Source: Verrucomicrobiia bacterium
Lineage (GTDB): Bacteria > Verrucomicrobiota > Verrucomicrobiia > Palsa-1439
DNA length: 64,000 bases
Direction of reading: 5' to 3'
Assembly (NCBI GenBank): GCA_022072455.1
Contig: JAJVHY010000010.1
Span: 1 to 64,000, forward strand
Position numbers and translations under genes: made by a program
Part shown: positions 11,506 to 52,490 of the stretch, piece after piece
Position numbering within the stretch: position 1 is the first letter of the stretch
How the letters are laid out: the number at the start of each line of letters is the position of its first letter
Notes under the pieces: generated by a model
The model's database searches: none
The model's input: only the letters and a program-made list of their open reading frames with translations
Told to the model about the DNA's origin: nothing

Positions 11506-12375
11506 TTACTCGGTGTTCAGGCAAACCAATCCCACCATCTCGTCCAGGCTCACCCGCTTCTTGCCACCGAACACGGCTAGCAGAGCAGCATCGGCATTGA
11601 TTCGGGTCTTCACTTTCTTGTCCTGCAACCCATTCCGCTGGATGTAATCCCAGAGCTTCTTGGTGAGCTCGGTGCGAGGTAGCGGTTTCGAGCCCACCAC
11701 CAATGCCAGCTTCTCATTGGGTTGGACGGGCTTCGTGGATGCGTCATCGGGTTTCCACTGGGCGCACGTCTTGGCACTATAACTCGGCAACAGTTTTCTC
11801 ATCGTCTGGCGTATGTCAGCGACACTTTTGGCATTGCGTAGCCCGAGCATAAGTTTCTTATCTTTGGAGGGCTTGATTGGTGCCAAGCCACGCACCTCCA
11901 ATGTCGGCACGTTTCCCAGCGAAACAGCCCGCTGCCACTTCTTCATGGCCTTCAGCGCCGCCGCCGCATAATGCCGATCATCTCTCGTACGGACGCCAAC
12001 GCCGTTAAAGAGGTAGTGGACGCCCAGCAACAACCGAAAGAGCGACCGATTGAAGTACCAGTCAGACTCGTGCAGTTTGTTGAATCGAGCCAGTCGGCGG
12101 GGAAGTCGGTCTCCCTCGTCGAATAGGAACGCAGGGGCTTTCGATCTATCGCTTTTCGCATGGTTGCACTCATAGCAAGAGCACACACCGTTCTTGAGCG
12201 TGGATAAACCTCCTTTGGCGACCGGCACGAGATGATCAGCCCAGTCGATTGCAAAGTACGGATTTGCCCCACCGTCGAGAATCCACAACTTTGCGCCGCA
12301 GTACACACATGTCGCCCGATGCTTGACAAATAGTTTGGCTTTTTGTGCCTCAGTGAAATTACTGGCTCGTGGCAT
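11506..12375 (-). CDS. HNH endonuclease family protein
   Basis: The 289-residue product has a zinc-stabilised HNH module at its N-terminus: CVYC (about 23-26), then DWADHLVPVAKGG with the DH catalytic pair, the conserved Asn of LKNGVCSCYECN, and the second CxxC. This is the McrA/HNH_5 layout, a metal-dependent DNA nickase or nuclease. The C-terminal 200 residues carry a basic, lysine-rich region and no other known domain. Possible roles are restriction or mobile-element homing. It is followed downstream by the Kelch gene in convergent orientation. Confidence 0.85.
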   Translation of the reverse strand: MPRASNFTEAQKAKLFVKHRATCVYCGAKLWILDGGANPYFAIDWADHLVPVAKGGLSTLKNGVCSCYECNHAKSDRSKAPAFLFDEGDRLPRRLARFNKLHESDWYFNRSLFRLLLGVHYLFNGVGVRTRDDRHYAAAALKAMKKWQRAVSLGNVPTLEVRGLAPIKPSKDKKLMLGLRNAKSVADIRQTMRKLLPSYSAKTCAQWKPDDASTKPVQPNEKLALVVGSKPLPRTELTKKLWDYIQRNGLQDKKVKTRINADAALLAVFGGKKRVSLDEMVGLVCLNTE

Positions 12376-13965: not shown

Positions 13966-14307
13966 TCACATCGCTACGATGGTTACTTGATACTTACCCA
14001 TTTTCTCAGAATTACCTGTTATGACTAGGGCATTCGATTCACGGTCAAACTTCATCGTCTGAAATTTCAGGTTAAATGCTAGGTGATAGATCGACGACGG
14101 ACACTCATCGGTTTCGACCAGTTGAACCGGGTCCTTCCAAGAATCCGGCTCAACAAATACTTTGGTTTGAAACGTATTTGTCTTGGTAGCGTGAAAGTAT
14201 GCGATACGAGCGTTCAACGCAAATAGGCCGGGATTCCTGGTTTTTGCCTTCTCGTTGTTTTCCCGTAAGAAGTCTAATAGCTCACCAAGATTCGCCTTTT
14301 CGTTCAT
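13966..14307 (-). CDS. hypothetical protein
   Basis: The 113-residue product begins MNEKANLGELLDFLRENNEK and continues with a beta-rich half (NTFQTKVFVEPDSWKDPVQLV, LAFNLKFQTMKFD). No known domain was recognised. It lies between the DUF2779 gene and the 131-residue gene on the same strand but with gaps on both sides. The ATG at 14307 is taken in preference to a TTG four codons upstream. Confidence 0.5.
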   Translation of the reverse strand: MNEKANLGELLDFLRENNEKAKTRNPGLFALNARIAYFHATKTNTFQTKVFVEPDSWKDPVQLVETDECPSSIYHLAFNLKFQTMKFDRESNALVITGNSEKMGKYQVTIVAM

Positions 14308-14375
14308 AGCTTTGCTCAATTACGTGATTGCGACGGATTTGTCTAGCAACCGACGGTCCTCGCACTATTTGCTCC

Positions 14376-15869
14376 TCACACAATCCGCCGCAGCGCATCC
14401 ACGATCCTAATCATCCCCTCGCTGTCTCGGGCGCAGTAATCCTCGAGCTGCTGGCGAACCCGCCGCCGCTCCTCCGCCGTCACCTCTCCAATCGTGACTC
14501 GCAGAAATTCATTTGAAGCCGTGTTACCTTCCTGAATTTCCAAGCCTTCGTAACCCTTGCCAGTCAACGCCGGTAAGGCGGCTTTCATCGAACCACTGCC
14601 GTGCTGCTCCGGGTGGTAATAGTCGAACGACCGGAACGGATCCAGCAAATCGACAACTCGAGTATCGACGTCCTTCACCCACGGCGAGAATTTGGGCATC
14701 ACGGCACAGCACTCTTTGAGACGGCTCAACTCGAAAGAAGCGTTGAACGCCACGACGGAGCCGTTGGGCGGCAGGGCGCCCCGGAGGGTGTTCATGAACT
14801 CCGGTCGGGGATCGTCACGGCCCTCGGCGAGAAACATGACGTGCTCCGGCTTAGCGCCAGCCGCACGCACAACGTGCAGGCTGAATTGAAACGGCACCTG
14901 CTGGTACGGGTGCAGCCCATCGAACAACGGAATGGCGGTGCCAAACGTCTCGAAATCCAAGTAGCTGACCGGGTACTCGAGCCGGGCCAGGAATTTGGCA
15001 ATCGCCTTTGAGTCGACGTGCGGCTTGCCGGAGATCGCAACCTGCCGTTGAATCGACTGATTGTTCGTGAGCTTGAAGCTGTCGGGAATGTCCTCGATCG
15101 CAGTGACGTCCCGACCGAGCAGATCGAAGCCCTTCTTACCGCCCCGGTACAAATCGAAAACGTTGTGATCCGGTAGAAACTTCCAGCAGTGATCGTGCAG
15201 CGGACAGGTGTATGGATCATCGCAGTGGGAGCCGATCTCGACTTCGGGATGTTTCCGCTGCTGGATCACCCTGAGCATGTCTTCGAGTTTGTCCGGCACC
15301 TGCTGCGCCAGTTCCGACACCTGGTCGCTCACGTCCACCAGTGTGAAAAACTTGTTCGGGTCGATGTCACCACGCCGAACGAAGTCGGAGTTGATGTGGC
15401 AGAGGTAGATTTTCCGTAGCAGCAGTCCGGCACTGCACAGCACCCAGGTCTGTAAAGCCAGGTCATCCAGGTGGACGTCTTTCAGGCTGGTTGTTGATTT
15501 GACTTCGATCAAATCCCAGGCGTCTTTCAGCGACGGACGCAGGATGTCGGTTCGGCAGTAGCCGCCGTCGGCAGTGAATGCCGCCTCGAACAGCGGCTTG
15601 CGAAGTTTGAGCGCTGCTTCGGTCAGCCGGATGACTTTTGCCGGGTCAATAATGCCAGCGCCGACCTCGACGCCATCAGGGAACATTTGCTTGGCGATGG
15701 CGCCGACGTCGTGGCCCTGCTCGAAGATCGCCTGGGTGGAGGCGTCCGGTGCCGGGATCAACTCTTTGGCGTTGTAAGCGTGCCACAAAAGTTTGTGACA
15801 CTGCAGGCCCCAGAGGAATTTGGACTTGGAAATGAATGGCGCTGGCTTCACTCGCCGGAATTGTAGCAC
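14376..15869 (-). CDS. DUF2779 family nuclease-like protein
   Basis: The 497-residue product starts near the family signature ISKSKFLWGLQCHKLLW. Residues 110-150 carry a PD-(D/E)xK-like core ending LIEVKS, as in RecB/Cas4-type nucleases, with a cysteine cluster at about 220-232 (CDDPYTCPLHDHCW) that could hold an iron-sulfur or zinc site. The C-terminal half looks like a DEDD-type exonuclease fold: SYLDFETFG, AFNASFE and YCARDSEGM. Such proteins occur singly or near defence and mobile genes; substrate unknown. The start is GTG at 15869 or a second GTG at 15851. It borders the element-like region that follows. Confidence 0.8.
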   Translation of the reverse strand: MLQFRRVKPAPFISKSKFLWGLQCHKLLWHAYNAKELIPAPDASTQAIFEQGHDVGAIAKQMFPDGVEVGAGIIDPAKVIRLTEAALKLRKPLFEAAFTADGGYCRTDILRPSLKDAWDLIEVKSTTSLKDVHLDDLALQTWVLCSAGLLLRKIYLCHINSDFVRRGDIDPNKFFTLVDVSDQVSELAQQVPDKLEDMLRVIQQRKHPEVEIGSHCDDPYTCPLHDHCWKFLPDHNVFDLYRGGKKGFDLLGRDVTAIEDIPDSFKLTNNQSIQRQVAISGKPHVDSKAIAKFLARLEYPVSYLDFETFGTAIPLFDGLHPYQQVPFQFSLHVVRAAGAKPEHVMFLAEGRDDPRPEFMNTLRGALPPNGSVVAFNASFELSRLKECCAVMPKFSPWVKDVDTRVVDLLDPFRSFDYYHPEQHGSGSMKAALPALTGKGYEGLEIQEGNTASNEFLRVTIGEVTAEERRRVRQQLEDYCARDSEGMIRIVDALRRIV

Positions 15870-15982
15870 GGCAGGAGGCGACCCGGTAGGGCCAAATCAA
15901 AAACGGGTTCGGCGAAGGGTTCCCAAGCGCAACGGGGAGTGCGTGTGTGTCAGCGCCGTGGGCCTCCGAGCAAGCGAAGCAT

Positions 15983-15997
15983 CCGGCACTCCTGACG
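15983..15997 (+). promoter_or_regulatory. shared element motif CCGGCACTCCTGACG, upstream of the ClpX-like gene
   Basis: The motif lies 59 bases before the ATG of the ClpX-like gene. Matching motifs are at 20620-20634, 24385-24399 and 54342-54356, each in the intergenic space before another gene of the putative element system. It may be a promoter or operator. Confidence 0.5.
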
Positions 15998-16055
15998 TGG
16001 GAATTTTCTGCACTTCGGCCTTGGCCGCTGTCGTGCGGTTCAGCATGCTTGCCCC

Positions 16056-17579
16056 ATGCCATCCGCCGCCGCCACTGCGATTTTGGAGTTTGGAAAATTG
16101 ATCCACACCGAGGCTTCACGGCCCGTCGCCGAGCACGACCCGAAACGCATCTTGACCGCCGAGCGGCGGCTGATTGAGCAACTGAGTGTTGATGACAACC
16201 CGCTCTTGAAACCGGCCTTGTTGTTCCACGTCAGCCGCCCCATCGAGCCGCTCGTGGTGCGCGTACTCGCACTCGTGGCCTACCTGCAATTATGCACCAA
16301 CTTCCGGGTCGCGATCACTGACGTTGCCATCGCCGCGACCGAAGATGACACGGCGCGGATCATCACGGCGCGGCAGGTCATCACTTCACTGTTGTATACG
16401 AAGCGCCTCCAGTTGGCGGTAAATACGGATGACCAATTGGAGTTGGGTCAGGCCATGTCATCGCTGCTGGCCGGGGGCTCCACCAAGTTACCAGTCATCG
16501 TCAACGCCTGTGAATTGCACCGCCAGTGGCGCCGCAACGAGGCCGAGGCCGCCAAACGCAAACTCCAGGAGTCGAAACCAGAACTGCCGACAGCCCGGGC
16601 GATCTACGAATCGCTTAGTCGCTTCGTCATCGGCCAACACGACTTGAAGATGGCACTGGCTGTCGCTGGCCGACAGACGTTGTTGCGGCGCGCGGTCCGA
16701 CAGCGGAAACAGCCCCAAGTCCTCCCGCCGAAGCCGAACGTCTGCGTCATTGGGGCCAGTGGCTCCGGCAAAAGCCTGGCCTGTCAGGCATTGAGCCAAA
16801 TCCTGCACCTGCCCCATGCCTCGGTCGATTGCAGTCAGGTCACCGCGTCGGGTTACGTCGGCGATGACCTATCCGGGTGTCTGTCGCTTCTCGCCCAATC
16901 CGCCGAGGCGATGCGCGTCAACCCCGAGGAGGGCGGGCTTGTCCATCTGGACGAGATCGACAAGGTTTCTTCGGCGGCGTACTCATCGCCGACAACGATC
17001 GGCGTGCAGTTCGAAGCCCTGCGGTTGCTCGATGGGGCACAGGTCTCTCACCCGGTCGGCAACATGACCAAGTGGGGTGGGTTCGGCGCCACCATGGACA
17101 CCTCAAACCTATTGGTCGTTTGTAGCGGAGCTTTCTCGTGGCTGGCTGACGATCTCAATGGAAGGAAGCGCGAACTGGGCTTCGCCCACAGCGTCAATGA
17201 TAACGCTACCCACGGCGGCAACTTACGCGAGTTGCTCTCGACTCGCGGTGGTCTCATCCCAGAGGTGGTCAACCGGTTCTCGGCCATCGTCCGAATGGAG
17301 CCGCTCACGCCGGAGGACATCGCGGCGATTCTTATGTCGGACCGCGGAGCACTCGGTGAATATCGCGCCCTGCTGCAAGCCGAAGGGCGGACTATTGCCG
17401 TGGAGCCAGAGGCCGCCTTGCTGGTCGGTCAGTGGTCCATTGCCACTGGCCAGATGGGGCGGGGCCCAAAGGCGGCGTTGGAGTTGTCGTTGCGCGAAGC
17501 CCTGTTCGAAGGGCAACCGAAGGACATCGTGGTTACGATCGACCTCGTTAGGCAGAAGCTCGGCGCCGTGGGTGATTGA
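16056..17579 (+). CDS. ClpX-like AAA+ ATPase
   Basis: The 507-residue product contains a ClpX-type AAA+ module in its second half: IYESLSRFVIGQHDLK (183-198), Walker A GASGSGKS (233-240), pore-loop GYVGDD (266-271, like the GYVGED loop of ClpX), Walker B GLVHLDEIDK (294-303) and the ENVNRF-like sensor region PEVVNRFSAIVRMEPL. The N-terminal 180 residues are not the ClpX zinc finger and are not recognised; they probably select a different client. There is no obvious ClpP-binding IGF loop. It probably unfolds or remodels a protein of the mobile element, such as a replication or transposition complex. It is the first gene of the plus-strand element region. Confidence 0.8.
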   Translation: MPSAAATAILEFGKLIHTEASRPVAEHDPKRILTAERRLIEQLSVDDNPLLKPALLFHVSRPIEPLVVRVLALVAYLQLCTNFRVAITDVAIAATEDDTARIITARQVITSLLYTKRLQLAVNTDDQLELGQAMSSLLAGGSTKLPVIVNACELHRQWRRNEAEAAKRKLQESKPELPTARAIYESLSRFVIGQHDLKMALAVAGRQTLLRRAVRQRKQPQVLPPKPNVCVIGASGSGKSLACQALSQILHLPHASVDCSQVTASGYVGDDLSGCLSLLAQSAEAMRVNPEEGGLVHLDEIDKVSSAAYSSPTTIGVQFEALRLLDGAQVSHPVGNMTKWGGFGATMDTSNLLVVCSGAFSWLADDLNGRKRELGFAHSVNDNATHGGNLRELLSTRGGLIPEVVNRFSAIVRMEPLTPEDIAAILMSDRGALGEYRALLQAEGRTIAVEPEAALLVGQWSIATGQMGRGPKAALELSLREALFEGQPKDIVVTIDLVRQKLGAVGD

Positions 17580-17937
17580 GCGTGATTGCCGGCGGCGGTG
17601 CGCACTGCAAAAGGTATCCGGATTCGAGGGCAAAACATCGCATTAAGCTGTCGGCGGGACTCCCCCGGCCGCTCAAAACCAGTCAGTGCCGCGCCAAAAA
17701 CACCGAAAATCGCCCGTTTTCGTTGGTTACTCGCCGACAGTGAACAGAAGTTGAGCGACCAAATTGCACCGCAGTTTTTGCCGCCGCCAGTCACCGGCCG
17801 TCGACCTTGGGCCGGATCGCCGCACAAATGACTTGCGCGGCATTGCTTCCGGGCTGACGATGCGGTCATCCGGATCATCTCGGCTCGCAAGGCAAACAAG
17901 CAGGAAGCGGCGTTCTATCGGAGTGGAGGGTAAAACC
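17580..17937. other. intergenic stretch with no gene
   Basis: No coding frame stands out. It contains a short hairpin, CGAAAA-TCGCCCG-TTTTCG, near 17707-17725, and the ribosome binding site GGAGGG for the antitoxin-like gene near 17924. Confidence 0.5.
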
Positions 17938-18156
17938 ATGAGAAACCATTACAATTTCAGCACGATGAAGGGCGAGCGCAACCCGTATGTCAAGGCGCTC
18001 AAGCAGCCGATCACGATGCGGATTGACAAGGCGACGGTGGGGTACTTCAAGGCGCTGGCCAAGGAGCTCGGGATGCCCTACCAGAACCTCATCAATCTGT
18101 ACCTACGGGACTGTGCCCTCCATCACAAGAAACTGCAGATGAAGTGGGCGGCCTAA
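17938..18156 (+). CDS. BrnA/CopG-like antitoxin, no toxin partner seen
   Basis: The 72-residue product reads NPYVKALKQPITMRIDKATV and continues YFKALAKELGMPYQNLINLYL, a ribbon-helix-helix protein close to the BrnA antitoxin pattern (I-T-M/I-R-I-D ... YF+ ... G-x-P-Y-Q-x-L-I-N). BrnA proteins bind DNA and neutralise the BrnT toxin, but no BrnT-like gene is next to it. It may work alone as an element-encoded repressor. A GGAGGG ribosome binding site lies about eight bases before the ATG. It converges on the polymerase-like gene. Confidence 0.75.
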   Translation: MRNHYNFSTMKGERNPYVKALKQPITMRIDKATVGYFKALAKELGMPYQNLINLYLRDCALHHKKLQMKWAA

Positions 18157-18187
18157 CGGCATCGCCAGCCGCGCCCACGGAATCGTG

Positions 18188-20476
18188 CTACTCGACGTGG
18201 AGCGTAGGTTGAATCCCGATCCTGTCGAACTCCTCCAGAATAGCTCCCCGCACGATCTCCACCCACGCCGGTGTCGTCATGATGCTGTCATGGATGGTGA
18301 CCAGTGGGCAATCAGGATGCGTACGCATCAGACGCCCACAGACACCCTCGATCATCAACCTCGATTCCGCCCTCTGCATCTGACACGCGAGGTCACGGTA
18401 ACCGTGCCAGCCCTTCCAATCGGTAATGAAGTGCCAAACTGTCGGGAAGTCGCTTTCCAGCATCGGCTGGAGGCGGCTGGGGTTGTACTTACCGGCGGCA
18501 TCACGGTCGCCATTGGTGCCATATAGGCACCGGAACACCTCTTCGTCCTTGAACGCCTGCTTGCCGGCTGTCCATCCGAGGCGCTCCATCAGGTATTGAT
18601 ATAGCCCACCGCTCTCGCAGAGCCGTCGGTAGTGCTCCAAGTCAGGCGGATAAGGACTCGTTTTTGCAACAGCCTCATCGGTAGTCTTTTGTGGATAAAA
18701 AGACGTCGTATAGGGGGCGAAGGATCGGGAGGGAGCTTTCCGGCACCGAAAACCGCCCTTTGGGACGCCTTTTGGAGCCTTGGCGACGGAGTCGCTCGCC
18801 GTCAGCAATGCCGCCAACAGGAACAGCGGTTGGCTATTGGCGACGTCAATGGTCACGAGCTGTTGGCCGTCGATTCGCAACAGTCCGCGCAATCCATGAA
18901 GCAATCGGGTGACATTCGTATGCACCCGTCCATAGTCACAGACCTTGAACTCCCATTGCCGCTCCGCGATGGCTTGAACCGCCAAGCGATGCATGTCACA
19001 CACCTCGTTGACCGGCATCGTCCAGTCGGCCCCGTCGGCAATGCTGATGATGCTCTGTGCCGAGGGCTGGTCAATAGTGAGGCGATCAAGCCACCCAAAG
19101 AGGTGCTTATGCACCGCCTTGTAGTGGCGGAAGTCCTGGTGGCGGAGTGATTTTATCCGCCATCCGAACTTCGCTCGGCGACAACCGACACGAACTGTCG
19201 GTGCATGTACATGGCGCTCGCAGAAGCGATAACCGTAGGACTTCTCACCAACGATATAGTGGTTGTCGCGCTCGATCAGCCCGACGGTCTGCATCTCGGT
19301 CAGCAACGGCTTCAGCAGGTCGGCATGCACGACCTGGCGCAGGTAATCGGACTTCAATAGCGTGTAGGTCGCGGTCTCATCAAGGTCGCCCAACAGTCTG
19401 CCCATCAGTATGCGATGTTGGATGTAGTTGGCCTGGTCAGCGTAGCGGCGGAATGGTTTGGACAGCACCTCGGCGGCGTCAATTTTGACGTAGAACAACA
19501 TCGGCTGGGGCTTCATCACAGCCCGCCGTCGTGGACGCGAGGCCGTGACCTTGGGTGGCTCACTAGCTGTTGCTCTCGTTGCTTCCGCCACGGAGTCAGC
19601 CGCGTCGGCGACCGGCGCGTCATGGACGATAGGAACATCATGTGTCGTCGACGCGATAGGGAGCATTCGCACCAACTGACCGGTCAGGTTGTTGACGAAG
19701 CCTGGGCACCTCACAAGTCCGCTGAATTGTCGAAGTGCTTCGTGATCTGGATTCAGCCCATCACGCTGGGCCAGCTCCTCAACCAGGTGGGCAATCCGAT
19801 AGAACTCCGGCAACTCGACGCTGGTGTCCTCACCTTCCTCCGGCAGGCTCTTCCAACTACGGATGCACTCGTGGTTGCGGATTGGGTTGATCCGCATGCA
19901 GACCTGCACGATGTCGCCACAGTCCACGGAGGCCAAGACATGCTGGCGGTGCCGCGCCAGCCAGTCGAGCCACCGCGGCGTGCAATTCTCCCCACCCTCC
20001 AACACGACCGTCCGCGCACCGCGGATCGTCCGATCACAAAGACGGCCGAACGCGAGCGGATTCGGGCAGACGAAGATGTCGTAGCCGAACCGCTTGTTCA
20101 GCTCCAGCAATTGGTCGATGATGGAGTCGAAACGTCCGGAATCGAGCCGTGTCGATTTCGGATTGGGGGCGACGGACGGACGATACCTGACCTCGCAGGT
20201 TCGCCGGTCGAAGTAGTCCACGATCAACCCCCACTCCGTGAGCGCGGCCATGGCGGATGGGTCAGCCAAGTGGCGACGATAGATGGTCTCCGACAGCCGC
20301 GGGAAGAAAAAGATCCTCTCTTGTGGGAAGAATAGCTGGCCGAGGAACCGCCGCAGTTCGACGTGCGTGGAGTCAGCCCACCTGCGCCCGGTTGGTGACG
20401 AGTTTGACGACGCGCTGCGGCTATGGCCGCACCGGGCGCAGGCAGAGGCTGAAATGGCTTCGAGCGTCGTCGTCAT
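18188..20476 (-). CDS. large protein with family A polymerase-like motifs
   Basis: The 762-residue product is not a family I can name. Its C-terminal 220 residues carry three motifs in the order of a family A polymerase palm: VTIDVANSQP with Asp544 (compare DYSQIELR, motif A), KQAFKDEEVFRCLYG at 639-653 (compare motif B, K-x-x-x-x-x-x-Y-G) and VTIHDS with His729-Asp730 (compare HDE, motif C). The N-terminal 320 residues contain no recognised nuclease motif and may be a primase-like or DNA-binding part; a linker rich in Ala and Arg divides the halves at about 290-325. I infer a replication protein of the element. Without structure prediction this remains tentative. Confidence 0.6.
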   Translation of the reverse strand: MTTTLEAISASACARCGHSRSASSNSSPTGRRWADSTHVELRRFLGQLFFPQERIFFFPRLSETIYRRHLADPSAMAALTEWGLIVDYFDRRTCEVRYRPSVAPNPKSTRLDSGRFDSIIDQLLELNKRFGYDIFVCPNPLAFGRLCDRTIRGARTVVLEGGENCTPRWLDWLARHRQHVLASVDCGDIVQVCMRINPIRNHECIRSWKSLPEEGEDTSVELPEFYRIAHLVEELAQRDGLNPDHEALRQFSGLVRCPGFVNNLTGQLVRMLPIASTTHDVPIVHDAPVADAADSVAEATRATASEPPKVTASRPRRRAVMKPQPMLFYVKIDAAEVLSKPFRRYADQANYIQHRILMGRLLGDLDETATYTLLKSDYLRQVVHADLLKPLLTEMQTVGLIERDNHYIVGEKSYGYRFCERHVHAPTVRVGCRRAKFGWRIKSLRHQDFRHYKAVHKHLFGWLDRLTIDQPSAQSIISIADGADWTMPVNEVCDMHRLAVQAIAERQWEFKVCDYGRVHTNVTRLLHGLRGLLRIDGQQLVTIDVANSQPLFLLAALLTASDSVAKAPKGVPKGGFRCRKAPSRSFAPYTTSFYPQKTTDEAVAKTSPYPPDLEHYRRLCESGGLYQYLMERLGWTAGKQAFKDEEVFRCLYGTNGDRDAAGKYNPSRLQPMLESDFPTVWHFITDWKGWHGYRDLACQMQRAESRLMIEGVCGRLMRTHPDCPLVTIHDSIMTTPAWVEIVRGAILEEFDRIGIQPTLHVE

Positions 20477-20619
20477 TGATCACCGCCATCCATATACAAG
20501 TCGCCGGTGACCGATCCCTGCCGGCGAGGGTGCGATTACCTCGATATGGGCAGGCCGGTAAGCGTTGGCGGTATCGCGGGCTAATCAGGCTCAAATGGAA
20601 TCCTGTGCGTCCAGTTTTC

Positions 20620-20642
20620 CCGGCACTCGTGACGTGCGTGTA
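20620..20642 (+). promoter_or_regulatory. shared element motif in the divergent intergenic region
   Basis: CCGGCACTCGTGACG (20620-20634) overlaps TGACGTGCGTGTA (20630-20642). The first part recurs before the ClpX-like and both methylase genes; the second is repeated exactly at 24118-24130. It lies between the polymerase-like gene (minus) and the small-gene operon (plus), so it could control either. Confidence 0.5.
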
Positions 20643-20723
20643 AAAATCGGCCGAAAATCGCACTGAAGGCCTTGGCCGAGTCGGGATCACGTGACATGGT
20701 ACTGGCAGAAAAGGAGACCCTCC

Positions 20724-20921
20724 ATGGACACCATCGAAATCAAATACTCCAGCCCGTCCCTCGGCGGCGGTTATGTAACCGAAACCATCCAGTGCCAGGG
20801 CACACAGCAAGCGTTTAACTTGATTCGCAGCCGCGTACCCGACGCAGTCTTCAACGGCATTGTCATCCACCCGTCGCCGCAACCGACCACGCCACCAACC
20901 GATCCGCACCGGCGATGGTAG
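20724..20921 (+). CDS. small hypothetical protein, first gene of the RuvB-like operon
   Basis: The 65-residue product, MDTIEIKYSSPSLGGGYVTE followed by a short helix and a proline-rich tail, has no recognised family. AAGGAG at 20711-20716 gives a well-placed ribosome binding site and fixes the start. Its stop overlaps the ATG of the next small gene. Confidence 0.55.
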   Translation: MDTIEIKYSSPSLGGGYVTETIQCQGTQQAFNLIRSRVPDAVFNGIVIHPSPQPTTPPTDPHRRW

Positions 20922-21127
20922 CGCTCGTGAGCCTACGACAAGCCATTGAACACGGAAAAGAATATCGGCAACAAGATCGCCACCTGCGTTTTCCACACTG
21001 CCGTCCGCACGGCAGTTGCCCATATTGCCGGAGCAACCGGATGCACTCACGGCAAAAGGTGGAGTTGTCGGCGACCGAACAGTTCCGGGAAGTGTCCACA
21101 GTAAAGGAGCCGATTACCACGCCATGA
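20915..21127 (+). CDS. small cysteine-containing hypothetical protein
   Basis: The 70-residue product has HCRPHGSCPYCRSNRMH in its middle, a Cys/His-rich stretch that could bind one zinc. Its start overlaps the stop of the preceding gene by seven bases and its stop overlaps the next start in an ATGA, which supports it as a translated gene of the operon. No family was recognised. Confidence 0.5.
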   Translation: MVALVSLRQAIEHGKEYRQQDRHLRFPHCRPHGSCPYCRSNRMHSRQKVELSATEQFREVSTVKEPITTP

Positions 21128-21501
21128 TCGAATTCAAAGAAGGCAGCTATTTCATCGGGTTTTGGTTCGTGGGCGGCGCGGACACCGACTGGTTCGCCGG
21201 GGCCTGGCGCGAACAAAGTAGCTCCACCTGGATCTTCCGCGCCCGGTTCCGGTATCACAGCCCGACGAGCCGGACGGCGTTTGACAACGAGGACCGCAAG
21301 AGTCCGATGGAGTTCGAGGTGGACGGAACGAAGAAGACCGAGGACGACATCATCCGCGACGTGGCGTTGATCGCCGGGCTGATTGGCCAACGGTTCGGCG
21401 TCGAGCCGGAGTTCGTCGAAGTCCGTGGGGATCGCGACAAGGCGTTGTTTTGTCTCGCGATGAAACCGTGGGCTCACATCGAACGGCAAGCGATCAAATG
21501 A
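21124..21501 (+). CDS. hypothetical protein of the RuvB-like operon
   Basis: The 125-residue product begins MIEFKEGSYFIGFWFVGGADT and has an alternating beta pattern with aromatic residues (STWIFRARFRYH), then a C-terminal helix and strand (DDIIRDVALIAGLIGQRFG). It looks like a compact alpha/beta domain; no family was recognised. It is coupled on both sides by ATGA overlaps, to the 70-residue gene and to the RuvB-like gene. Confidence 0.6.
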   Translation: MIEFKEGSYFIGFWFVGGADTDWFAGAWREQSSSTWIFRARFRYHSPTSRTAFDNEDRKSPMEFEVDGTKKTEDDIIRDVALIAGLIGQRFGVEPEFVEVRGDRDKALFCLAMKPWAHIERQAIK

Positions 21502-22466
21502 ACGCGCTTCGCCCAGCAACCTTGGATCAGTTCGTTGGCCAGGAGTCGGTGCGGCGTATCTTGTCCGTACTGATTGCTGCGGCACGCAAACGCAACGAGC
21601 CAGTGCCGCACCTGCTGATGTCAGGCCCGCCAGGCTTGGGGAAAACCAGCCTCGCCCGCATCGTGGCGCACGAGATGAAGGGACGCTTGACCGAGATGGT
21701 TGGCTCGACCGTCAAGCAGGTCAGCGACATGAGCCATCACCTACTCCAATTGCGGCCGAATGACGTGCTCTTCATCGACGAGATTCACGCGCTGCCGCGC
21801 AAAGTTGAGGAAGTGCTGTACGGAGCCATGGAGGACAACGCCATCACAGTCGAGCAGCGTGGCTTCAACGATCTGATGCGCCAGATTGGCGTCGCGCATG
21901 GCGACAAGTCAGTCACGACGCATCGGCTGCCGCCATTTTCACTGCTTGGAGCCACGACCAAACTCGGATCGGTCACTGCTCCGCTCCGCGCACGATTTCG
22001 TCAGGTGATCGAGTTGCGTCCGTATGCCGTCAGTGAATTGCAGCGCATCGTCACCGTCACGGCAGAGAAGCTGCAGTTTGCATTGCCCGAGGAGATCGCC
22101 ATGCAGATTGCTCAACGGAGCCGCGGCACCGCACGCGTGGCCGTCAGTCACTTGATGTGGCTTCGTGACGTCGTCATGGGCGACGGCGGGGTGGCGACGA
22201 TGGAGCTCTTACGCCAAGCGTTCGAGTTGAAAGGCATTGACGAGAACGGGCTCGGCCAATCGGATCGCGAGTATCTGCACCAGTTGATTAAGACCGACGA
22301 AGCACTTGGTGCCGACACGCTCGCCACTGCACTCGGCGAAAGCGTCGAGACCGTTACCGACAGTATCGAGCCGTACCTGATGCAGAGTGGGTTCGTGCAG
22401 CGCACGTCACGGGGCCGGATGGCGACCGACAAGGCTCGCGAACTGTTAAAGGAGGCAACCGCATGA
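21498..22466 (+). CDS. RuvB-like Holliday junction AAA+ ATPase
   Basis: The 322-residue product follows RuvB along its length: LRPATLDQFVGQESVRRIL at the start, Walker A GPPGLGKT (43-50), VLFIDEIHALPR with the Walker B DEIH (94-97), the QRG loop, LLGATTKLGSVTAPLRARF with the arginine finger, and the C-terminal winged helix (YLMQSGFVQRTSRGRMAT). Unlike housekeeping RuvB it has an insertion after the QRG region (DLMRQIGVAHGDKS) and no ruvA or ruvC next to it. RuvB drives branch migration at four-way junctions. As part of a small-gene and recombinase operon it probably serves replication or integration of the element. ATGA overlaps link both neighbours. Confidence 0.9.
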   Translation: MNALRPATLDQFVGQESVRRILSVLIAAARKRNEPVPHLLMSGPPGLGKTSLARIVAHEMKGRLTEMVGSTVKQVSDMSHHLLQLRPNDVLFIDEIHALPRKVEEVLYGAMEDNAITVEQRGFNDLMRQIGVAHGDKSVTTHRLPPFSLLGATTKLGSVTAPLRARFRQVIELRPYAVSELQRIVTVTAEKLQFALPEEIAMQIAQRSRGTARVAVSHLMWLRDVVMGDGGVATMELLRQAFELKGIDENGLGQSDREYLHQLIKTDEALGADTLATALGESVETVTDSIEPYLMQSGFVQRTSRGRMATDKARELLKEATA

Positions 22467-23149
22467 ACGAATGGACGCTGACCCCCGACCGTTACCTCGC
22501 CAAGGAGGAAGTGGGCTAACTTCTTCGTCGCGCCGAGGAACTGCGTGCTGTCGGTGTCGCGAAGAATCGCCGCCAGGCCGTGCGCGACTGGTTGATCATC
22601 CGCCTAGCGTTGTTCTCCGGCCTCCGGGCCTCGGAGATCTGCGCCCTGCAAATCACAGATTGCCACATCGGCTATGCTCACAGCGATCTGTTGGTGCGCC
22701 GGGGTAAAGGCAACAAAATGCGGGTCGTGAAGATCGGCCCCGATTTGAAGAAAGACATCCGCTGGTATTTGCGCTGGAAGGCACAGGTCGGCGAGTTGCA
22801 CCCAGACGCCTACTTGCTCCGGACGAAGCGCGCGGAGCGTTTGAACCGCAGTGCGCTGTGGCGGCGATGGAATCGTTATTGTCCCTCCCACCGACTGCAC
22901 GATGCCCGGCACACGGCCGCGACTCTGTTGTATGAAGCGAGCCAGGACTTGCGGTTGGTTCAGAAGCAACTCGGTCACAGCCGCCCCTCGATCACGGCGG
23001 TCTACGCTGATGTCTGCGATGTGAAAGCCCGCGAAGGAGTGGCGGCCATGGAGCAACTCGCTAAGCGCACGATGCGGGTGGGCGGCTCCACGCCGGCCAC
23101 CGAACCGATGTTGTCCTCTGCTCCGGCTGAAGTCGCCGCTGGCATCTGA
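22463..23149 (+). pseudogene. minimal tyrosine recombinase with an in-frame stop
   Basis: From the ATG that overlaps the RuvB-like stop, the frame reads MNEWTLTPDRYLAKEEVG, then TAA at 22517-22519, then LLRRAEELRAVG and onward without a break to 23149. The catalytic residues of a tyrosine recombinase are all there: Arg in SGLRASEI, Lys in RGKGNK, the HDARH box, His in LGHSRPSIT and the Tyr of VYADV. There is no full N-terminal core-binding domain, as in small catalytic-domain-only integrases. The stop removes only the first 18 codons, but no good restart site is visible (first candidate GTG at 22580). It may be inactive, suppressed, or a sequencing error. Confidence 0.8.
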
Positions 23150-23633
23150 CCGTTTTTCACCGTTTAGTTCCAACAGCTCACCGGTTCGCATCCGTACTGC
23201 CGATCTGATGCGAACCTTGCCGAATCGGATGCGAAACAGGGGGCGAAATGACACGATGTGATGCGAAAAACCGCCCTATTTTGATTTGGTCGGATGGCTT
23301 TTTCGCAACCGATCCTGCCGGACTTCGCATCAATCGCGTGTCGGACGCAAACCTCTCCGTATGCGTTCGACCAAATGGTGCGGCGGGTAGTGGTAAGAAT
23401 TTACCACCATGTGGTTGACCCACCCGTTCCTCACCGGCCCGAAAACTCTGGCCAGAACCATCGAACTGTTCAAAGCCCCTTGCCTACGGTTCAAAGTCGG
23501 GTGGGTGGGCGACCAGAAGGGTTCAAAGTTTCAGGGCATTTTTGATTTGCGGAGGCGGTTTTTCGTTCAGAGTCTATGTACGTTCAGTCCAGAGTTCTTG
23601 AATGCCGCGGGTGATGTCGTCGTGCGCCGACAT
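23150..23633. other. non-coding stretch with iteron-like repeats
   Basis: No gene is supported here. The first 180 bases hold the GATGCGAA/TTCGCATC repeats listed separately. The rest has no feature I can identify. Confidence 0.6.
23185..23331. repeat. iteron-like cluster of GATGCGAA / TTCGCATC
   Basis: Five exact copies of an 8-mer occur in 147 bases: TTCGCATC at 23185-23192 and 23324-23331, GATGCGAA at 23207-23214, 23228-23235 and 23260-23267. The outer copies are inverted relative to the inner three. Such clusters are typical of replication-initiator or recombinase binding sites. Confidence 0.7.
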
Positions 23634-23957
23634 TCACCGCCCACTGATCAGGCTGGGGGTGAATACCGCTTGGGCGAGTCGCCGGGTTTCAGCCGTATGG
23701 CAAAGCGTGTGCGCGCCGGTCGGCCACTTAACGACGACGCGTCCGCGCTTTGAGTCGGGCCAACGGTAGGGGCGTTTGGGAGCCCAGTAGGCTTGCTGCC
23801 ATTCGGCTGCCGTCGGCTGCGGAACGACTGCAAAAGCGTCCGTCTTGGTGCAGATGAGCATCAGCTCGGCTGTGTCGAGGCAAGTCGAAAAGACCCACCA
23901 TTCATGGCTGGCGGCATTGTCGTTCGGCGTTATGACTGCGGTGATTTTCGAATCCAT
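23634..23957 (-). CDS. small hypothetical protein
   Basis: The 107-residue product reads MDSKITAVITPNDNAASHEW, then WWVFSTCLDTAELMLICTK and TAAEWQQAYWAPKRPYRWPD, ending in a helical tail. It has a coherent alpha/beta pattern and a GGAGAAA ribosome binding site before the ATG at 23957. No family was recognised. It is the only minus-strand gene between the recombinase and the first methylase and is probably element cargo. Confidence 0.6.
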   Translation of the reverse strand: MDSKITAVITPNDNAASHEWWVFSTCLDTAELMLICTKTDAFAVVPQPTAAEWQQAYWAPKRPYRWPDSKRGRVVVKWPTGAHTLCHTAETRRLAQAVFTPSLISGR

Positions 23958-24319
23958 AGTGCTTTCTCCAATGACCCACCGGCCGGTGATGACGGTGGAT
24001 TGGCAACCGCTGGATGAATCCAAGCCGGCCGGGCGGGTCAGGTTTGCGCTGCGAGCTACGCCAATCGCGTTCATCGTCCATCTTATACCGCTTGCCCTTT
24101 GGATTCCGGGGCTGCGATGACGTGCGTGTAGCGTACCCTGTGCGACCGATACCCGCGGGGTGGTGTTTCCCACTCATAATGGTCGTGTTTGGCCGCCTCT
24201 CTCGGCACCGGCAGGACTTGGAGATCCTCGTTCCTGTGCGACCACCGATCGAGGTACCACCTTCACCATCACGTGCAGACGTGTTCACGACGTCAGTCGC
24301 CAAGCGGCGCAGGTGGAAA
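23958..24319. other. intergenic stretch with no supported gene
   Basis: Long open frames exist here but do not look coding. TGACGTGCGTGTA at 24118-24130 repeats exactly the motif at 20630-20642. Confidence 0.4.
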
Positions 24320-24455
24320 ACTTCCCGGCGCCGGGAAGTCCCGCCTCCTTGGGCACCGCCACCGCCCGCACTTCGCTGGTCACGCCGGCACTCCTGACCT
24401 GACACGAGGGCCGGGGTGGTTCGGATCCCAGGCGCCTGGCGGCCATTGGCCCCGA
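24320..24455 (+). promoter_or_regulatory. conserved palindromic block upstream of methylase 1 (copy A)
   Basis: Three parts are present. A perfect 20-bp palindrome, ACTTCCCGGCGCCGGGAAGT, is at 24320-24339 and is repeated exactly at 51036-51055. CCGGCACTCCTGACC is at 24385-24399. A 33-bp block at 24423-24455 contains CCAGGCGCCTGG and CGGCCATTGGCCCCGA and recurs at 51127-51159 and 54378-54410. It lies about 100 bases before the GTG of the methylase. The palindromes suggest protein binding or RNA structure. Confidence 0.75.
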
Positions 24456-24557
24456 TGTGCGCCGGCACCCCGGCAAGTGACGAGTGCCGGTTGTTGCTCG
24501 GAGCAGAAAATCGCAGACTCCAGAAGGCCTTCGCCTGCCGATCTTGAATAACGATGA

Positions 24558-25394
24558 GTGCATACAATCATCACTCACGGTCAGCGCCGGTCGGCCGCTG
24601 ACCTCGTACCATACACTCGTAGTGTCTTGCGAATGCCGGGCGGCAAGACGCGCGGCCTCAATCAACTGCTTCGCTACTTCCCGGCCGAGCCGAGCATGCT
24701 GGTGTCGCCATTTTTAGGCGGCGGGAGTCTCGAGCTTGCCCTAGCCGCACGGGGCTGGCACATCCACGGCTACGATGCGTTCGAGCCACTGGTCGACTTT
24801 TGGCAAGAGGCGTTAGAAGACCCCGTCGTATTGGCGGAGGCGGTCGAGCGCTATTTACCCTTGGATCGCGACACCTTCCGACGTCTTCAGCGCACACGCC
24901 TTGAATCACGGTGCGCACGAGCGGCCGCGTACTTCGTGATTAACCGCAGTAGTTTTAGCGGCAGCACCATGTCCGGCGGAATGTCGCCGTCTCATCCCCG
25001 CTTCGATTCCAACGCCATTGATCGGCTGCGGCGATTTCGCGCCCCGAATTTGACGGTCGAGTTGGCGGACTTCCGCGAGTCGATTGCGGCGCATCCAAAG
25101 ACGTTGTTGTATTGCGATCCACCTTACCCGGATGCTCGATCACTCTATGGTGTGAACGGCGACAAACACGATGGCTTCGACCATCAGGCACTCTGCGACA
25201 TTCTGCGATCCCGGGACAAATGGCTCTTGTCCTATAGTGACTGTCCACTGGTGCGTTGGTGGTACAACGACTTCACGATCATTCCGCTTAGTTGGTCATA
25301 CGGAATGTCGATCAAGCGCGGGCGTGAGCTGCTGATTCTGAGCGACGATGTAGCGGAGGACTTTCGCGGCCGGCGCGGGAAGGAGTTACCGTGA
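24558..25394 (+). CDS. D12-class DNA adenine methylase 1 (Dam-like)
   Basis: The 278-residue product is a Dam/D12-class N6-adenine methyltransferase: LRMPGGKTRGLNQLLRYF at the start, SAM-binding motif SPFLGGGSLELALA (about 50-63) and catalytic motif CDPPY (about 192-196). It is closely similar to the product of 54519-55361 along its full length, including the region before PGGKTR, which supports the GTG start at 24558 in both. No cognate restriction enzyme is nearby, so it is probably an orphan methylase of the element, involved in replication control or protection. It is followed by the remnant of a zinc-ribbon gene at 25391-25414, intact in the other copy. Confidence 0.9.
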   Translation: MHTIITHGQRRSAADLVPYTRSVLRMPGGKTRGLNQLLRYFPAEPSMLVSPFLGGGSLELALAARGWHIHGYDAFEPLVDFWQEALEDPVVLAEAVERYLPLDRDTFRRLQRTRLESRCARAAAYFVINRSSFSGSTMSGGMSPSHPRFDSNAIDRLRRFRAPNLTVELADFRESIAAHPKTLLYCDPPYPDARSLYGVNGDKHDGFDHQALCDILRSRDKWLLSYSDCPLVRWWYNDFTIIPLSWSYGMSIKRGRELLILSDDVAEDFRGRRGKELP

Positions 25395-25502
25395 AAATCT
25401 GCGACATCGCTTGACTCGTGCGTTGTATTGCTCGACGAACCGGTCGATGGCTTCGGTGACGGTTAGGCCGTGTAAATCGAGTTGGTCATCGGAAGATGGC
25501 AT
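25386..25502 (-). pseudogene. truncated Smr-domain protein, N-terminal fragment
   Basis: The 38-codon frame starts MPSSDDQLDLHGLTVTEAID and continues RFVEQYNARVKR, the first strand and helix of an Smr domain (LDLHGLT ... EA). The domain needs about 80 residues; here it runs into the end of the methylase gene and stops. The break point is near 25405-25412, where it meets the broken zinc-ribbon gene coming from the other side. Confidence 0.7.
25391..25414 (+). pseudogene. remnant of the methylase-linked zinc-ribbon gene
   Basis: GTG AAA ATC TGC GAC then ATC GCT TGA encodes MKICDIA. In the second methylase locus the gene in the same place (55358-55579) begins MKICDVCQ and is intact. Only five codons survive here, so the element-like block ends at this point. 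Confidence 0.75.
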
Positions 25503-25581
25503 GATCCTCTTTCTTATCCCCTCTTATCCCAGCCCACGGCAGACCTTAGGAATGAACCAACGCTTTCTCGCGCTCAGGCCC

Positions 25582-25809
25582 TCAAGTGGAGGCGATTCCC
25601 AAGAATCGCTCCGCCTTGCGTAATACGGGAATCCATTCTTCATTGTCACGGCAGCAGTATTTTTCCACAGGTCGGAAGGCACCTCGGCCATGCCGCAGGG
25701 CGATGGCCATGTAGTGCAGGATAGTTTTCAATTCTGCGTCTGTGAACACCGCACTGACTTTGCGGCGGCAGGGGCGGAGTTTTACTTTTCTTTGGAGGGA
25801 GGCTTTCAT
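25582..25809 (-). CDS. small hypothetical protein
   Basis: The 75-residue product has a basic N-terminus (MKASLQRKVKLRPCRRKVSA), then FTDAELKTILHYMAIALRHG and a helical C-terminus (EWIPVLRKAERFLG). It looks like a small helical protein; no family was recognised. It starts seven bases after the frame at 25817 and is probably co-transcribed with it. Confidence 0.55.
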   Translation of the reverse strand: MKASLQRKVKLRPCRRKVSAVFTDAELKTILHYMAIALRHGRGAFRPVEKYCCRDNEEWIPVLRKAERFLGIAST

Positions 25810-25816
25810 GGTTATC

Positions 25817-26040
25817 CTATCGGATCGGTTCAGCCTTGGCGTACAGTTCCTGCGGGGCGACGGCAAAATACTTGAACAGCGCCGGGCAAAGCCAGCCTTC
25901 TTGCCGGTGCTGCTCCGACCAATACCAGTTGCCGCCGCTTTCTTCCCGCCGCCAAGCGAGTCTGACTGAGTATCCCGGAAAGGGCTGCGCACTGAATAAC
26001 AGCCGGAACCCGCTGTTCGCTGCTGCGTGTCGAACCCGAC
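25817..26040 (-). pseudogene. reading frame without a start codon, probable 5'-truncated gene
   Basis: On the minus strand one frame reads GYSVRLAWRREESGGNWYW then SEQHRQEGWLCPALFKYF and AVAPQELYAKAEPIR before a stop. The sequence looks strongly coding, with aromatic and charged residues in protein-like order, but there is no ATG or GTG before the frame closes upstream near 26060. It seems to be the 3' part of a small gene whose beginning has been lost. No family was recognised. Confidence 0.45.
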
Positions 26041-26059
26041 GCCTACGGTCTGGGCGTCA

Positions 26060-26438
26060 ACTCCGACCAATACGGTCGTCCGCATACTAGATGGCAAGAA
26101 ACTCGACCCCATCTTTCAGGGAGGCGTAAACGCGACGCCTACCGGCCAACGGTGGACAAATGACGGGCTTCGTTTTCATCTGGAAGCAGTATGGTGCGGA
26201 AATTGGAAACGAACAGGAAACGAGAATGGAAACGAGCGCATAAGAGGGCGGTTTCTGTGCGAAGAATTTGGAAACGAACTGGAAACAGAGGTTGTGAAAC
26301 CGAACGCGAATAGCTTGCGTGAAATCCTAATCTTGACAAGAAGCTTCAGTTCAAAGCGCGGCAAATCTGTGGCAAAAAACCTTCTGAGCTAACAGACTGT
26401 CGAAGCTGTCGTGGATGAACAGCCCATATCAGATCTGC
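26060..26438. other. low-coding stretch with GGAAACGA repeats
   Basis: No gene is supported. It lies downstream of the large glycosidase operon and holds the GGAAACGA repeats listed next. Confidence 0.5.
26205..26288 (+). repeat. direct repeats of GGAAACGA
   Basis: Exact GGAAACGA copies start at 26205, 26216, 26228 and 26270, and a variant GGAAACAG starts at 26281. Spacings of 11, 12, 42 and 11 place most copies on one face of the helix. They may be protein binding sites. Confidence 0.55.
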
Positions 26439-28430
26439 TCAAACCAACTCATAAATCTCGCCGCTCTTCCGGTCCACATCCACCACTGCTTGACGGCGCT
26501 GTACCGGTATTACTTCGCCTGTCGTTAGGTTGATCAGTTGCCGGAAGTTGTCGCGGGGGAACTCGACGACGAACCGTGCAGCTTCGGGATAATGGTTCAG
26601 CACAAACAGAATCTCCTCGCCGTTTCCGCGATGGAGGACGGCGCTGCCCCAGTTGCGCGGCTGTCGGTATTCCTTACTACCACCGCCTTCCGTCCAGTCC
26701 ACCCAAGACACTTCTGTTTCGGGACGGATGCGGACATGCGGTTGGGGAACATGCCGGCGGATGAGCTTGGCCACATAAGCGAGGCTGTCCAAGCGTTCCT
26801 CCTCCGGTTTTTCTTGGGCGAGATAGTCACACTGGATTCCTAACTTCACCGGCGCAGGTCCGCTGACCACGAGGATGCCGCCGCGTTTCACGAAAGCCCG
26901 GCAGGCTTTCACGGTCTCCGGCGACAACACCGGTGAACCCGGCAAGAATGCGAGCCGGTACTCTTGCAGCCGCTGGGGCGCGGCGACGGTGTCCACGGCG
27001 CCGGGTTGGACACCGCATTGTTCGACCAGCCGGAATAAGCCTTCGTATTCCGCGCTCGCCTTGCCGGCGGCGATGCCGGCAATCTTCGGTTTTCCGATGT
27101 GCAGGTCGTTGTCGGCGCACGGCGCGGGGTCGCCGATGCCGGTATGTTGGTGCGAGAGCAGATCGTAAATGATCGCTACGTCTGTCTGCGGCACGAGTGC
27201 GTCCCAGTTCTGGATCTTGTCGAAGAGCAACTCCCGCGTCTCGCGCAGGACTTCGAGGCTCGGACGGGCGTGACCGTGGGAGCTGACCGGCGAATCGCCC
27301 CAACAATCCCGGTCATGGAACATGAACCACGCAATCGCCTTGCAGCCGTGTGCCACGGCGCATCGAGCCATGAACCGCATGTGATCGTCGCTGACCCGCA
27401 TGTCGCCGAGATTCAGCTTCCACGTGCCGCTCATGAACTCGGCCGACCACGTGTACTTGAGACTCGCGTTCATCAGCTTCAGCACCCGCGCCATCGAGTG
27501 GTAGCCGGAGTAGCTCATGAACGTGCCGCGGTAGAAGTCGTAGCCGACGATCCCGCCCTCGCCCACGGCCTTCTCGAACGCCGACATCCGCGTCGGCACG
27601 CCTTCGGGGCGGTGCGGGTTGAAGTTGGTCATGAAGGTCACGCCCTTGACGCCGTTGGCCTCGTGCATTGCGCGCAACCGGCGGATGTACTCGCTCATGC
27701 ACCAGGTCTTGAACTCCAGCCAGTCCACGTACTCCGGCAAGTCGTCGCCGATCTCGTCCGGGACGGCGCGCGGGGCGGGACGCAGCCGCGACTTCCGCGC
27801 GTGGAGAAACTGTTCCCAGTAGCCGCCGGGGCCGACGTTGACCGGGTTGTAGTCGGAGTCGAGGAAGCTGTCTTTGACAATGTAACTGATCTCGTTGTCG
27901 AGGTTGAGCATCGTGATGCAGCCGCCGTTGGCGCGCAGGTGTGGCACGATGATCTTGTCGGTTTCGGCGAACCACTTCCTGCACCAATCGAGATAAGTCG
28001 GGTGCAAGTACGACGGCTGCATGCCTTCCTTCTTCGCGATCCAGTAGCCTTGCGTGGGCCGGTTGGCGTAGTCCCAGACCATGATGTTCGGGTCGCCGAG
28101 CACCAACCACGGCGGCAGGCCGCCGTGGACCATTTCGTTGCAGCAAAACGGGCCGCACCGGAAGTTGAGATTGAAGCCGTGTTTCTCGACCAGTTCGAGA
28201 AAACGATGGAGGTTCAAGCGCGGGTCGGTCTTGCCGGTGAAGTCGAGGATGCCGGCGGGATGCTTCTTGTCCGGTGGGCCGACTAGGTGTGTCTTCCACT
28301 GCACATAGGTCGTGACACAGCGCAAGCCGGTCTCCTTGAAGCGTTCGAGGATGGTTTCCCAGTAGCGTGGATCGGTGCGGAAATACTGGATCTCCGCGCC
28401 AAAGATTTCTTTGAAGTTGTGTAGATTCAT
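26439..28430 (-). CDS. GH35 family beta-galactosidase-like glycoside hydrolase
   Basis: The 663-residue product follows the GH35 pattern: GAEIQYFRTDPRYWETILER at 11-30, FDFTGK-like DFTGKTDPRLNLHRFLELVEKH, RCGPFCCNEMVHGGLPPWL, then LNLDNE with the probable acid/base Glu180 and YTWSAEFMSG with the probable nucleophile Glu331. A GATase-like domain (RLAFLPGSPVLSPETVKACRAF) and a C-terminal beta domain follow. GH35 enzymes release terminal beta-galactose. No signal peptide is visible, so it may act in the cytoplasm. The ATG at 28430 overlaps the GH38 stop. It is the last gene of the operon. Confidence 0.85.
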   Translation of the reverse strand: MNLHNFKEIFGAEIQYFRTDPRYWETILERFKETGLRCVTTYVQWKTHLVGPPDKKHPAGILDFTGKTDPRLNLHRFLELVEKHGFNLNFRCGPFCCNEMVHGGLPPWLVLGDPNIMVWDYANRPTQGYWIAKKEGMQPSYLHPTYLDWCRKWFAETDKIIVPHLRANGGCITMLNLDNEISYIVKDSFLDSDYNPVNVGPGGYWEQFLHARKSRLRPAPRAVPDEIGDDLPEYVDWLEFKTWCMSEYIRRLRAMHEANGVKGVTFMTNFNPHRPEGVPTRMSAFEKAVGEGGIVGYDFYRGTFMSYSGYHSMARVLKLMNASLKYTWSAEFMSGTWKLNLGDMRVSDDHMRFMARCAVAHGCKAIAWFMFHDRDCWGDSPVSSHGHARPSLEVLRETRELLFDKIQNWDALVPQTDVAIIYDLLSHQHTGIGDPAPCADNDLHIGKPKIAGIAAGKASAEYEGLFRLVEQCGVQPGAVDTVAAPQRLQEYRLAFLPGSPVLSPETVKACRAFVKRGGILVVSGPAPVKLGIQCDYLAQEKPEEERLDSLAYVAKLIRRHVPQPHVRIRPETEVSWVDWTEGGGSKEYRQPRNWGSAVLHRGNGEEILFVLNHYPEAARFVVEFPRDNFRQLINLTTGEVIPVQRRQAVVDVDRKSGEIYELV

Positions 28431-50866: not shown

Positions 50867-51035
50867 ACTCACTAGACTCCGGTTTGAGTCCCGGCATCGT
50901 GAGTTTGGGGCGTTTCCTGTTCAGGATCGCCCACAACCGAGTAGGAAATAGCGCTACGGCAAATCGAGGGGTTTAGCCGCGTAGGTGCCGTAGGCCCGGA
51001 AGGGATATATGCCAAGACATCAGTCGCCGATCGAA
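50867..51035. other. intergenic remainder, nothing recognised
   Basis: No gene, hairpin or repeat was identified in this stretch between the operators and copy B of the palindromic block. Confidence 0.4.
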
Positions 51036-51159
51036 ACTTCCCGGCGCCGGGAAGTCCCGCCCCTTGGTCACTGCCACCGCCTGGTCACAAGGTGATGCCA
51101 TGGGAGCGACCGCTATGCTTGGCACCGGATCCAGGCGCCTGGCGGCCATTGGCCCCGAC
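51036..51159 (+). promoter_or_regulatory. conserved palindromic block (copy B) downstream of topo VI
   Basis: The perfect palindrome ACTTCCCGGCGCCGGGAAGT is at 51036-51055 and the block with CCAGGCGCCTGG and CGGCCATTGGCCCCGA at 51127-51159. The same two sequences in the same order and orientation occur at 24320-24455. Here no methylase follows; the next gene is the convergent end of topo VI A. With copy C at 54378 it brackets the topo VI genes. Confidence 0.7.
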
Positions 51160-51238
51160 ATGCGCCGACGCTTCTGGTGTAGATGTTGGTGAGCCGTGGG
51201 CGTTGGACGGACCTGGTAATGGCGGCAGGCAATGACCT

Positions 51239-52473: not shown

Positions 52474-52490
52474 GGCGGCTCCTTTTTCGG

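Follow-up and report, generated by a model that had tools for sequence, protein, structure and literature searches.

What kind of genetic element might bring together, within less than 10 kb, a ClpX-like unfoldase, a polymerase, a RuvB-like motor, a tyrosine recombinase, and a DNA methylase? The question is raised by positions 15983-25394 of the window analysed here, which is the first 64,000 nt of a 98.6-kb contig (G000:C22) from a Verrucomicrobiia bacterium (assembly GCA_022072455.1; 4.82 Mb, completeness estimate 95.6%). A first-pass annotation had proposed a replication and maintenance module matching no familiar plasmid or phage type. Profile and alignment evidence confirmed the genes that it listed, including the ClpX-like gene without a zinc finger, the polymerase-like and RuvB-like genes, and a D12 methylase. 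The view that these genes served a mobile element in its replication and maintenance also gained support, from a TV-Pol-like replicase and from the recurrence of a small gene, the RuvB-like gene, and the recombinase gene beside another element-type primase in a related genome, G007. We consider it fairly probable that this region represents the core of a mobile replicon, integrated and partly decayed, which resembles a plasmid or a phage satellite.

The recurring block is an operon with the following features.

20724-20921, + strand: small gene of 65 amino acids, the first of the operon
21073-21501, + strand: hypothetical protein, an open reading frame without a Pfam match, absent from the corresponding place in G007
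21498-22466, + strand: RuvB-like Holliday-junction motor; the hairpin that follows AMED carries an insertion of 10 residues
22463-23149, + strand: tyrosine recombinase gene, overlapping the stop codon of the RuvB-like gene and lacking the N-terminal core-binding domain, with an in-frame TAA at 22517-22519

We searched 384 genomes of the class separately with the RuvB-like protein and the recombinase. The RuvB-like protein was found at high score in two of them, the window genome and G007, and the recombinase was found in the same two genomes only, with the two genes adjacent in both. Genome G002 carries a fragment of the RuvB-like gene, and a scan of genome contigs for RuvB was swamped by canonical RuvB. 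At the G007 locus (L118), the small gene, the RuvB-like gene, and the recombinase gene stand in the same order, with identities of 50, 66, and 60%, respectively, and their divergent neighbour is a PriCT-2 primase, unlike the AEP/TV-Pol-like replicase of the window. We conclude that the genes for the RuvB-like protein and the tyrosine recombinase belong together as a unit. Co-occurrence had been suggested as a check for the whole set of families, and only the small gene, the RuvB-like gene, and the recombinase gene were found to recur as a block. A phage locus (L264), where a full-length tyrosine recombinase follows a RuvB homologue at 0.9 kb, was too distant to be counted as the same unit. A literature search covering part of the literature returned no report of a RuvB-recombinase unit, and together with its site the unit is apparently undescribed.

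The catalytic domain of the recombinase matches PF00589 with 87.1 bits. The open reading frame annotated initially (22580-23149) is only the 3' part of a gene that starts at 22463 and is interrupted by the TAA at codon 19, where the frame of the G007 homologue, a protein of 229 amino acids consisting of the catalytic part only, stays open. The window copy is probably inactive, as judged from its sequence, and the in-frame stop indicates that the module is decaying.

RuvB normally requires RuvA to act on Holliday junctions, and it is the hairpin after AMED that contacts RuvA. In this hairpin, the window and G007 proteins have a common insertion (EQRGFNDLMR and EHHGFNDLMK, respectively) that is missing in all eight other RuvBs aligned. 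The window protein resembles the RuvB of RuvAB in its RuvB_N, lid, and RuvB_C domains and in its Walker A and B motifs, but it differs in the hairpin insertion, in the adjoining tyrosine recombinase, and in its position outside the canonical RuvB clade, where the tree joined it to the G007 protein at 100/99. The window block also contains neither ruvA nor ruvC, unlike RuvAB systems. Could the gene nevertheless be the working RuvB of the host, a xenologous replacement of a lost canonical gene, with the remainder of the region being debris? It is the sole RuvB found in the window genome: no canonical RuvB was detected in this assembly, estimated as 95.6% complete, and ten of ten other genomes of the family have one. 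It also passes one of the two RuvB equivalog cut-offs (321.6 vs. 282 for NF000868; 292.4 vs. 299.05 for TIGR00635). However, G007 has a canonical RuvB as well as the RuvB-like gene, the pair shares the insertion in the RuvA-contact hairpin, and a canonical gene may sit in the missing few percent of the assembly. We therefore regard the replacement of the host RuvB as improbable.

Behind the recombinase gene lies a stretch of 1.4 kb without recognised genes, in which a palindrome is flanked by two repeat arrays.

23185-23331, + strand: array 1, GATGCGAA at 23207, 23228, and 23260 (spacing 21 and 32 bp), with inverted copies at 23185 and 23324, five in all
23390-23408, + strand: 19-bp palindrome GTGGTAAGAATTTACCACC, identical in G007 (L118 6413-6431), a candidate recombination core site
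23468-23528, + strand: array 2, GTTCAAAG at 23468, 23489, and 23521 (spacing 21 and 32 bp)

These arrays account for the iteron-like repeats noticed earlier. They consist of different 8-mers in an identical geometry. The whole 98.6-kb contig has only six exact 8-mer triples, of which these are two, and dinucleotide shuffling of the region produced a pair of triples with a common geometry in 0 of 5000 trials. When simply aligned with their spacers included, the arrays were unconvincing alone, with 14 of 500 shuffles scoring as well, so the case for the arrays rests on the words and their geometry. The 19-bp palindrome is present in one copy at each of the two loci and had no exact match in IMG/VR. 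The site region in G007 folds into several hairpins (z -4.3), and positions 14000-27000 of the window had no match in Rfam.

The spacings of 21 and 32 bp correspond to two and three helical turns and are usual for iterons. The palindrome and arrays might alternatively represent an iteron-type replication origin, or a partition site, bound by a Rep-like protein, in which case the recombinase and the RuvB-like gene would be mere neighbours and the duplication of an origin would have given rise to the two words as versions of different specificity (incompatibility). The repeats are direct in both arrays, their spacers are partly similar, and the replicase gene is located about 3 kb away, making this a sizeable possibility, albeit one that we hold to be less than evenly likely. 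The arrays lie directly behind the recombinase instead of beside the replicase, the palindrome is the element conserved at both loci even though the replicases differ entirely, and no A+T-rich unwinding stretch was seen, the G+C content being 0.58 over 23-24 kb.

Tyrosine recombinases make Holliday junctions. Under the mobile-replicon reading that we prefer, the recombinase would have acted at the palindrome, either for integration or for dimer resolution, and might have been assisted by proteins bound on the flanking arrays, whose copies, two and three helical turns apart, would be aligned along the same side of the helix. The RuvB-like motor might then have worked on the Holliday junction made by the recombinase, loaded via its altered hairpin instead of by RuvA. 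Single-recombinase systems of the Xer/dif type (XerS, XerH, and XerA) likewise link a recombinase gene to a short palindromic site, and accessory sequences are known for the plasmid sites cer and psi (PMC5357621). Unlike these systems, the window has a recombinase without the core-binding domain, a RuvB-like partner, and two phased arrays of different words, and its site is a candidate one. A bolder proposal, which we hold to be rather unlikely in its entirety, is a two-component form of site-specific recombination, in which a minimal tyrosine recombinase and a dedicated RuvB-family motor, with a changed hairpin replacing RuvA, would operate at a palindrome with an array of fixed geometry on either side. 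The 8-bp address word, present three times, would change as a set, so that the binding specificity diverges while the architecture is kept, and the unit would move between elements with different replicases.

What, then, would have replicated such an element? The replicase is encoded divergently from the operon.

18188-20476, - strand: replicase of 762 amino acids, with a degenerate archaeo-eukaryotic primase (AEP) domain at about residues 40-276 and a TV-Pol/family-A-like polymerase at about residues 340-762

The replicase had no convincing match among Pfam, PHROG, or NCBIfam profiles, and for its polymerase and AEP parts PDB sequence profiles were uninformative. With tblastn, relatives of the C-terminal half were found in phages of 595-735 kb and in a 35-kb Hymenobacter plasmid. 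The relatives in genomes of the phylum are shorter proteins, adjoined by an integrase in G293 and by a resolvase and an integrase in G138. R517, D544, H729, and D730 are invariant over nine aligned sequences including the replicase, which retains the hairpin Arg (R517) and both catalytic Asp residues of the palm (D544 and D730) as in the TV-Pol family. In the fingers, the replicase has KxxxK (K639 and K643) vs. RxxxK in most aligned relatives, which is a conservative change. When the whole replicase was modelled with AlphaFold from its single sequence, the result was poor (pLDDT 35.9) and was left out of the structure searches. For the model of the polymerase half, which is also of low confidence (pLDDT 41.8), all 50 Foldseek matches shown were family-A DNA polymerases, as were all VIA-align matches shown, with Z-scores up to 9.9. 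The polymerase-like motifs noted in the first-pass annotation are thereby placed in family A, both by the motifs and by the fold of this low-confidence model.

The N-terminal part is 27% identical to an AEP-like protein of G105 (E 1e-16). In the alignment, the acidic motif I and the SxH motif II are lost (VESD to LEGG and SGGKSIH to DCGDIVQ, respectively), suggesting an AEP-derived domain that is probably inactive as a primase. Since these motifs are lost and the catalytic residues of the polymerase are kept, the protein combines a probably dead primase domain with a polymerase that retains its catalytic residues. The family-A domain might have both primed and copied the element once the AEP domain had lost its active site.

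The TV-Pol class comprises polymerases of transposons and viruses, and elements carrying them together with integrases have been described (PMC2579912). Our comparisons support the replicase being TV-Pol-like, of the kind described by Iyer et al. (PMC2579912), and because such elements are on record, the claim that the region matches no known plasmid or phage type is only partly supported. As in TV-Pol elements, including SCCmec with CcPol-MP (PMC10061031), a family-A-like minimal polymerase is combined with a site-specific recombinase in a mobile element, and the replicase itself retains the hairpin Arg, both catalytic Asp residues, and the HD motif. Unlike in those elements, the window polymerase is fused to a degenerate AEP domain, is linked to a RuvB-like motor, and has KxxxK instead of RxxxK; a D5-like helicase was not recognised within the window block. 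Two related loci may be mentioned. L015 (G293:C75, 4751 bp) contains a TV-Pol-like gene and a tyrosine integrase gene and is perhaps a small TV-Pol element. In a 595-kb phage (L012 5932-8378), a TV-Pol-like gene is immediately followed by a second gene resembling the Pol I core, an order also seen in L271.

Do the ClpX-like and methylase genes belong to the same element? The features that bear on this question are as follows.

15983-15996, + strand: motif CCGGCACTCCTGAC, 60 bp upstream of the ClpX-like gene, one of four exact copies in the genome
16056-17579, + strand: ClpX-like AAA+ unfoldase with an AAA_2 match and its own N-terminal part of about 150 amino acids, a probable accessory gene
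20620-20633, + strand: motif CCGGCACTCGTGAC, between the divergent replicase and the small-gene operon
24318-24474, + strand: leader repeat upstream of the first methylase, with palindrome ACTTCCCGGCGCCGGGAAGT at 24320 and motif CCGGCACTCCTGAC at 24385
24558-25394, + strand: D12 (Dam-like) adenine methylase (PF02086, 80.7 bits, cut-off 22), a probable accessory gene
51034-51180, + strand: leader repeat copy behind the topoisomerase VI genes
54342-54429, + strand: leader repeat copy with motif CCGGCACTCCTGAC, upstream of the second methylase
54519-55361, + strand: second D12 methylase (PF02086, 80.4 bits), related to the first

A whole-genome pattern search for the CCGGCACTCSTGAC motif, that is, CCGGCACTC(C/G)TGAC, found exactly four copies in 4.82 Mb, starting at 15983, 20620, 24385, and 54342, all on the + strand of this contig; the pattern read backwards occurred 0 times in the genome. 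We estimate the chance expectation at about 0.07 copies. As had been noticed, the copies lie upstream (by about 60-165 bp) of the ClpX-like gene, the small-gene operon in the divergent region, and both methylases. The copies at 24385 and 54342 are not independent, because they are contained in a duplicated leader (85% over 91 bp). The perfect 20-bp palindrome ACTTCCCGGCGCCGGGAAGT occurs twice in the contig (24320-24339 and 51036-51055), and ACTTCCCGTCGCCGGGAAGT in the G007 site region (L118 6384-6403) is one base off it.

The ClpX-like protein shares with ClpX the AAA+ core, the GYVG pore loop, and the LGF loop for ClpP docking in the alignment, but it has no zinc finger or RKH loop, has a different N-terminus, and scores far below the ClpX equivalog models (165.4 and 137.1 bits; cut-offs 359 and 370.75). 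A search for co-occurrence yielded proteins of the ClpX type from almost all genomes and no close relative. Only the motif and proximity connect the ClpX-like and methylase genes with the core, and these two are probably accessory genes under a common promoter or operator motif.

Elsewhere on the contig there are two more methylase modules. One of them, at 51.0-55.4 kb, includes topoisomerase VI, and the other, at 78.5-83 kb, has a truncated methylase followed by a DUF5131-like gene, an HTH gene, and an integrase, all named by eye. Its methylase (G000:C22:78488-82986; L005 and L013) is D12-like over about 60 N-terminal residues and unrelated in the remainder, with a full-length tyrosine integrase downstream, and this module is probably the end of another integrated element. 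With three methylase-bearing modules at 24.6, 54.5, and 78.5 kb, one of them a truncated fragment near an integrase, the region might instead have arisen by several independent acquisitions in a hot spot, namely the RuvB-recombinase unit, a replicase remnant, and methylase modules sharing a leader repeat. Consistent with this, no other locus was found to unite the polymerase, ClpX-like, and methylase genes, and the single five-gene core implied at the outset was not supported. However, the motif found nowhere else in the genome precedes the ClpX-like gene, the small-gene operon, and both methylases, and the order of the small gene, RuvB-like gene, and recombinase gene is conserved, leaving piecemeal acquisition as an unlikely, though by no means negligible, account.

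The topoisomerase VI A and B genes (51316-54242) are flanked by leader-repeat copies. Topoisomerase VI, which is sporadic in bacteria (PMC11302465), is present in 52 of 387 genomes of the phylum and is common in classes other than that of the window genome, with A subunits 66-83% identical to that of the window; no other genome of the window's class was among those listed. We rejected it as an element marker because this occurrence and identity make it ordinary for the phylum. The polymerase, ClpX-like, topoisomerase VI B, and RuvB-like proteins, each used as a single query, had no matches in IMG/VR. Around the core, we also observed an orphan CopG/BrnA-type antitoxin-like gene (17893-18156, + strand; PF12441 and PF14384 just over cut-off), a gene at 11506-12375 whose product has an HNH endonuclease domain ahead of a SWIB/MDM2 domain, and, directly past the region, four copies of GGAAACGA within 73 bp (26205-26277, at 26205, 26216, 26228, and 26270; 2 of 200 shuffles equal). 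A circular or linear replicon with terminal repeats was rejected. The 124-bp sequence at 1-124, inverted at G000:C22:98480-98603, is also found in eight other contigs, several times at the very end, and is therefore probably an insertion-sequence end that broke the assembly rather than a telomere.

Several points weigh against the region being the core of a mobile replicon. No boundaries, circular form, or empty site have been demonstrated for the element. The ClpX-like and methylase genes could have been acquired separately, and an iteron origin would also fit the palindrome with its arrays, for which a recombination role is putative. The structure model of the polymerase half is of low confidence. 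The link between the RuvB-like gene and the recombinase could be local history because the unit was found at two loci only, and the RuvB-like protein might serve the host because no other RuvB was found in the window genome.

The replicase, in which a family-A polymerase is joined to a primase domain without an active site, might be a snapshot of one priming enzyme replacing another, as Iyer et al. proposed from gene neighbourhoods (PMC2579912). The pairing of a mobile recombinase and a RuvB-like motor with their own site, if true, would provide a simple system in which to study RuvA-independent loading and site-specific recombination assisted by a motor.

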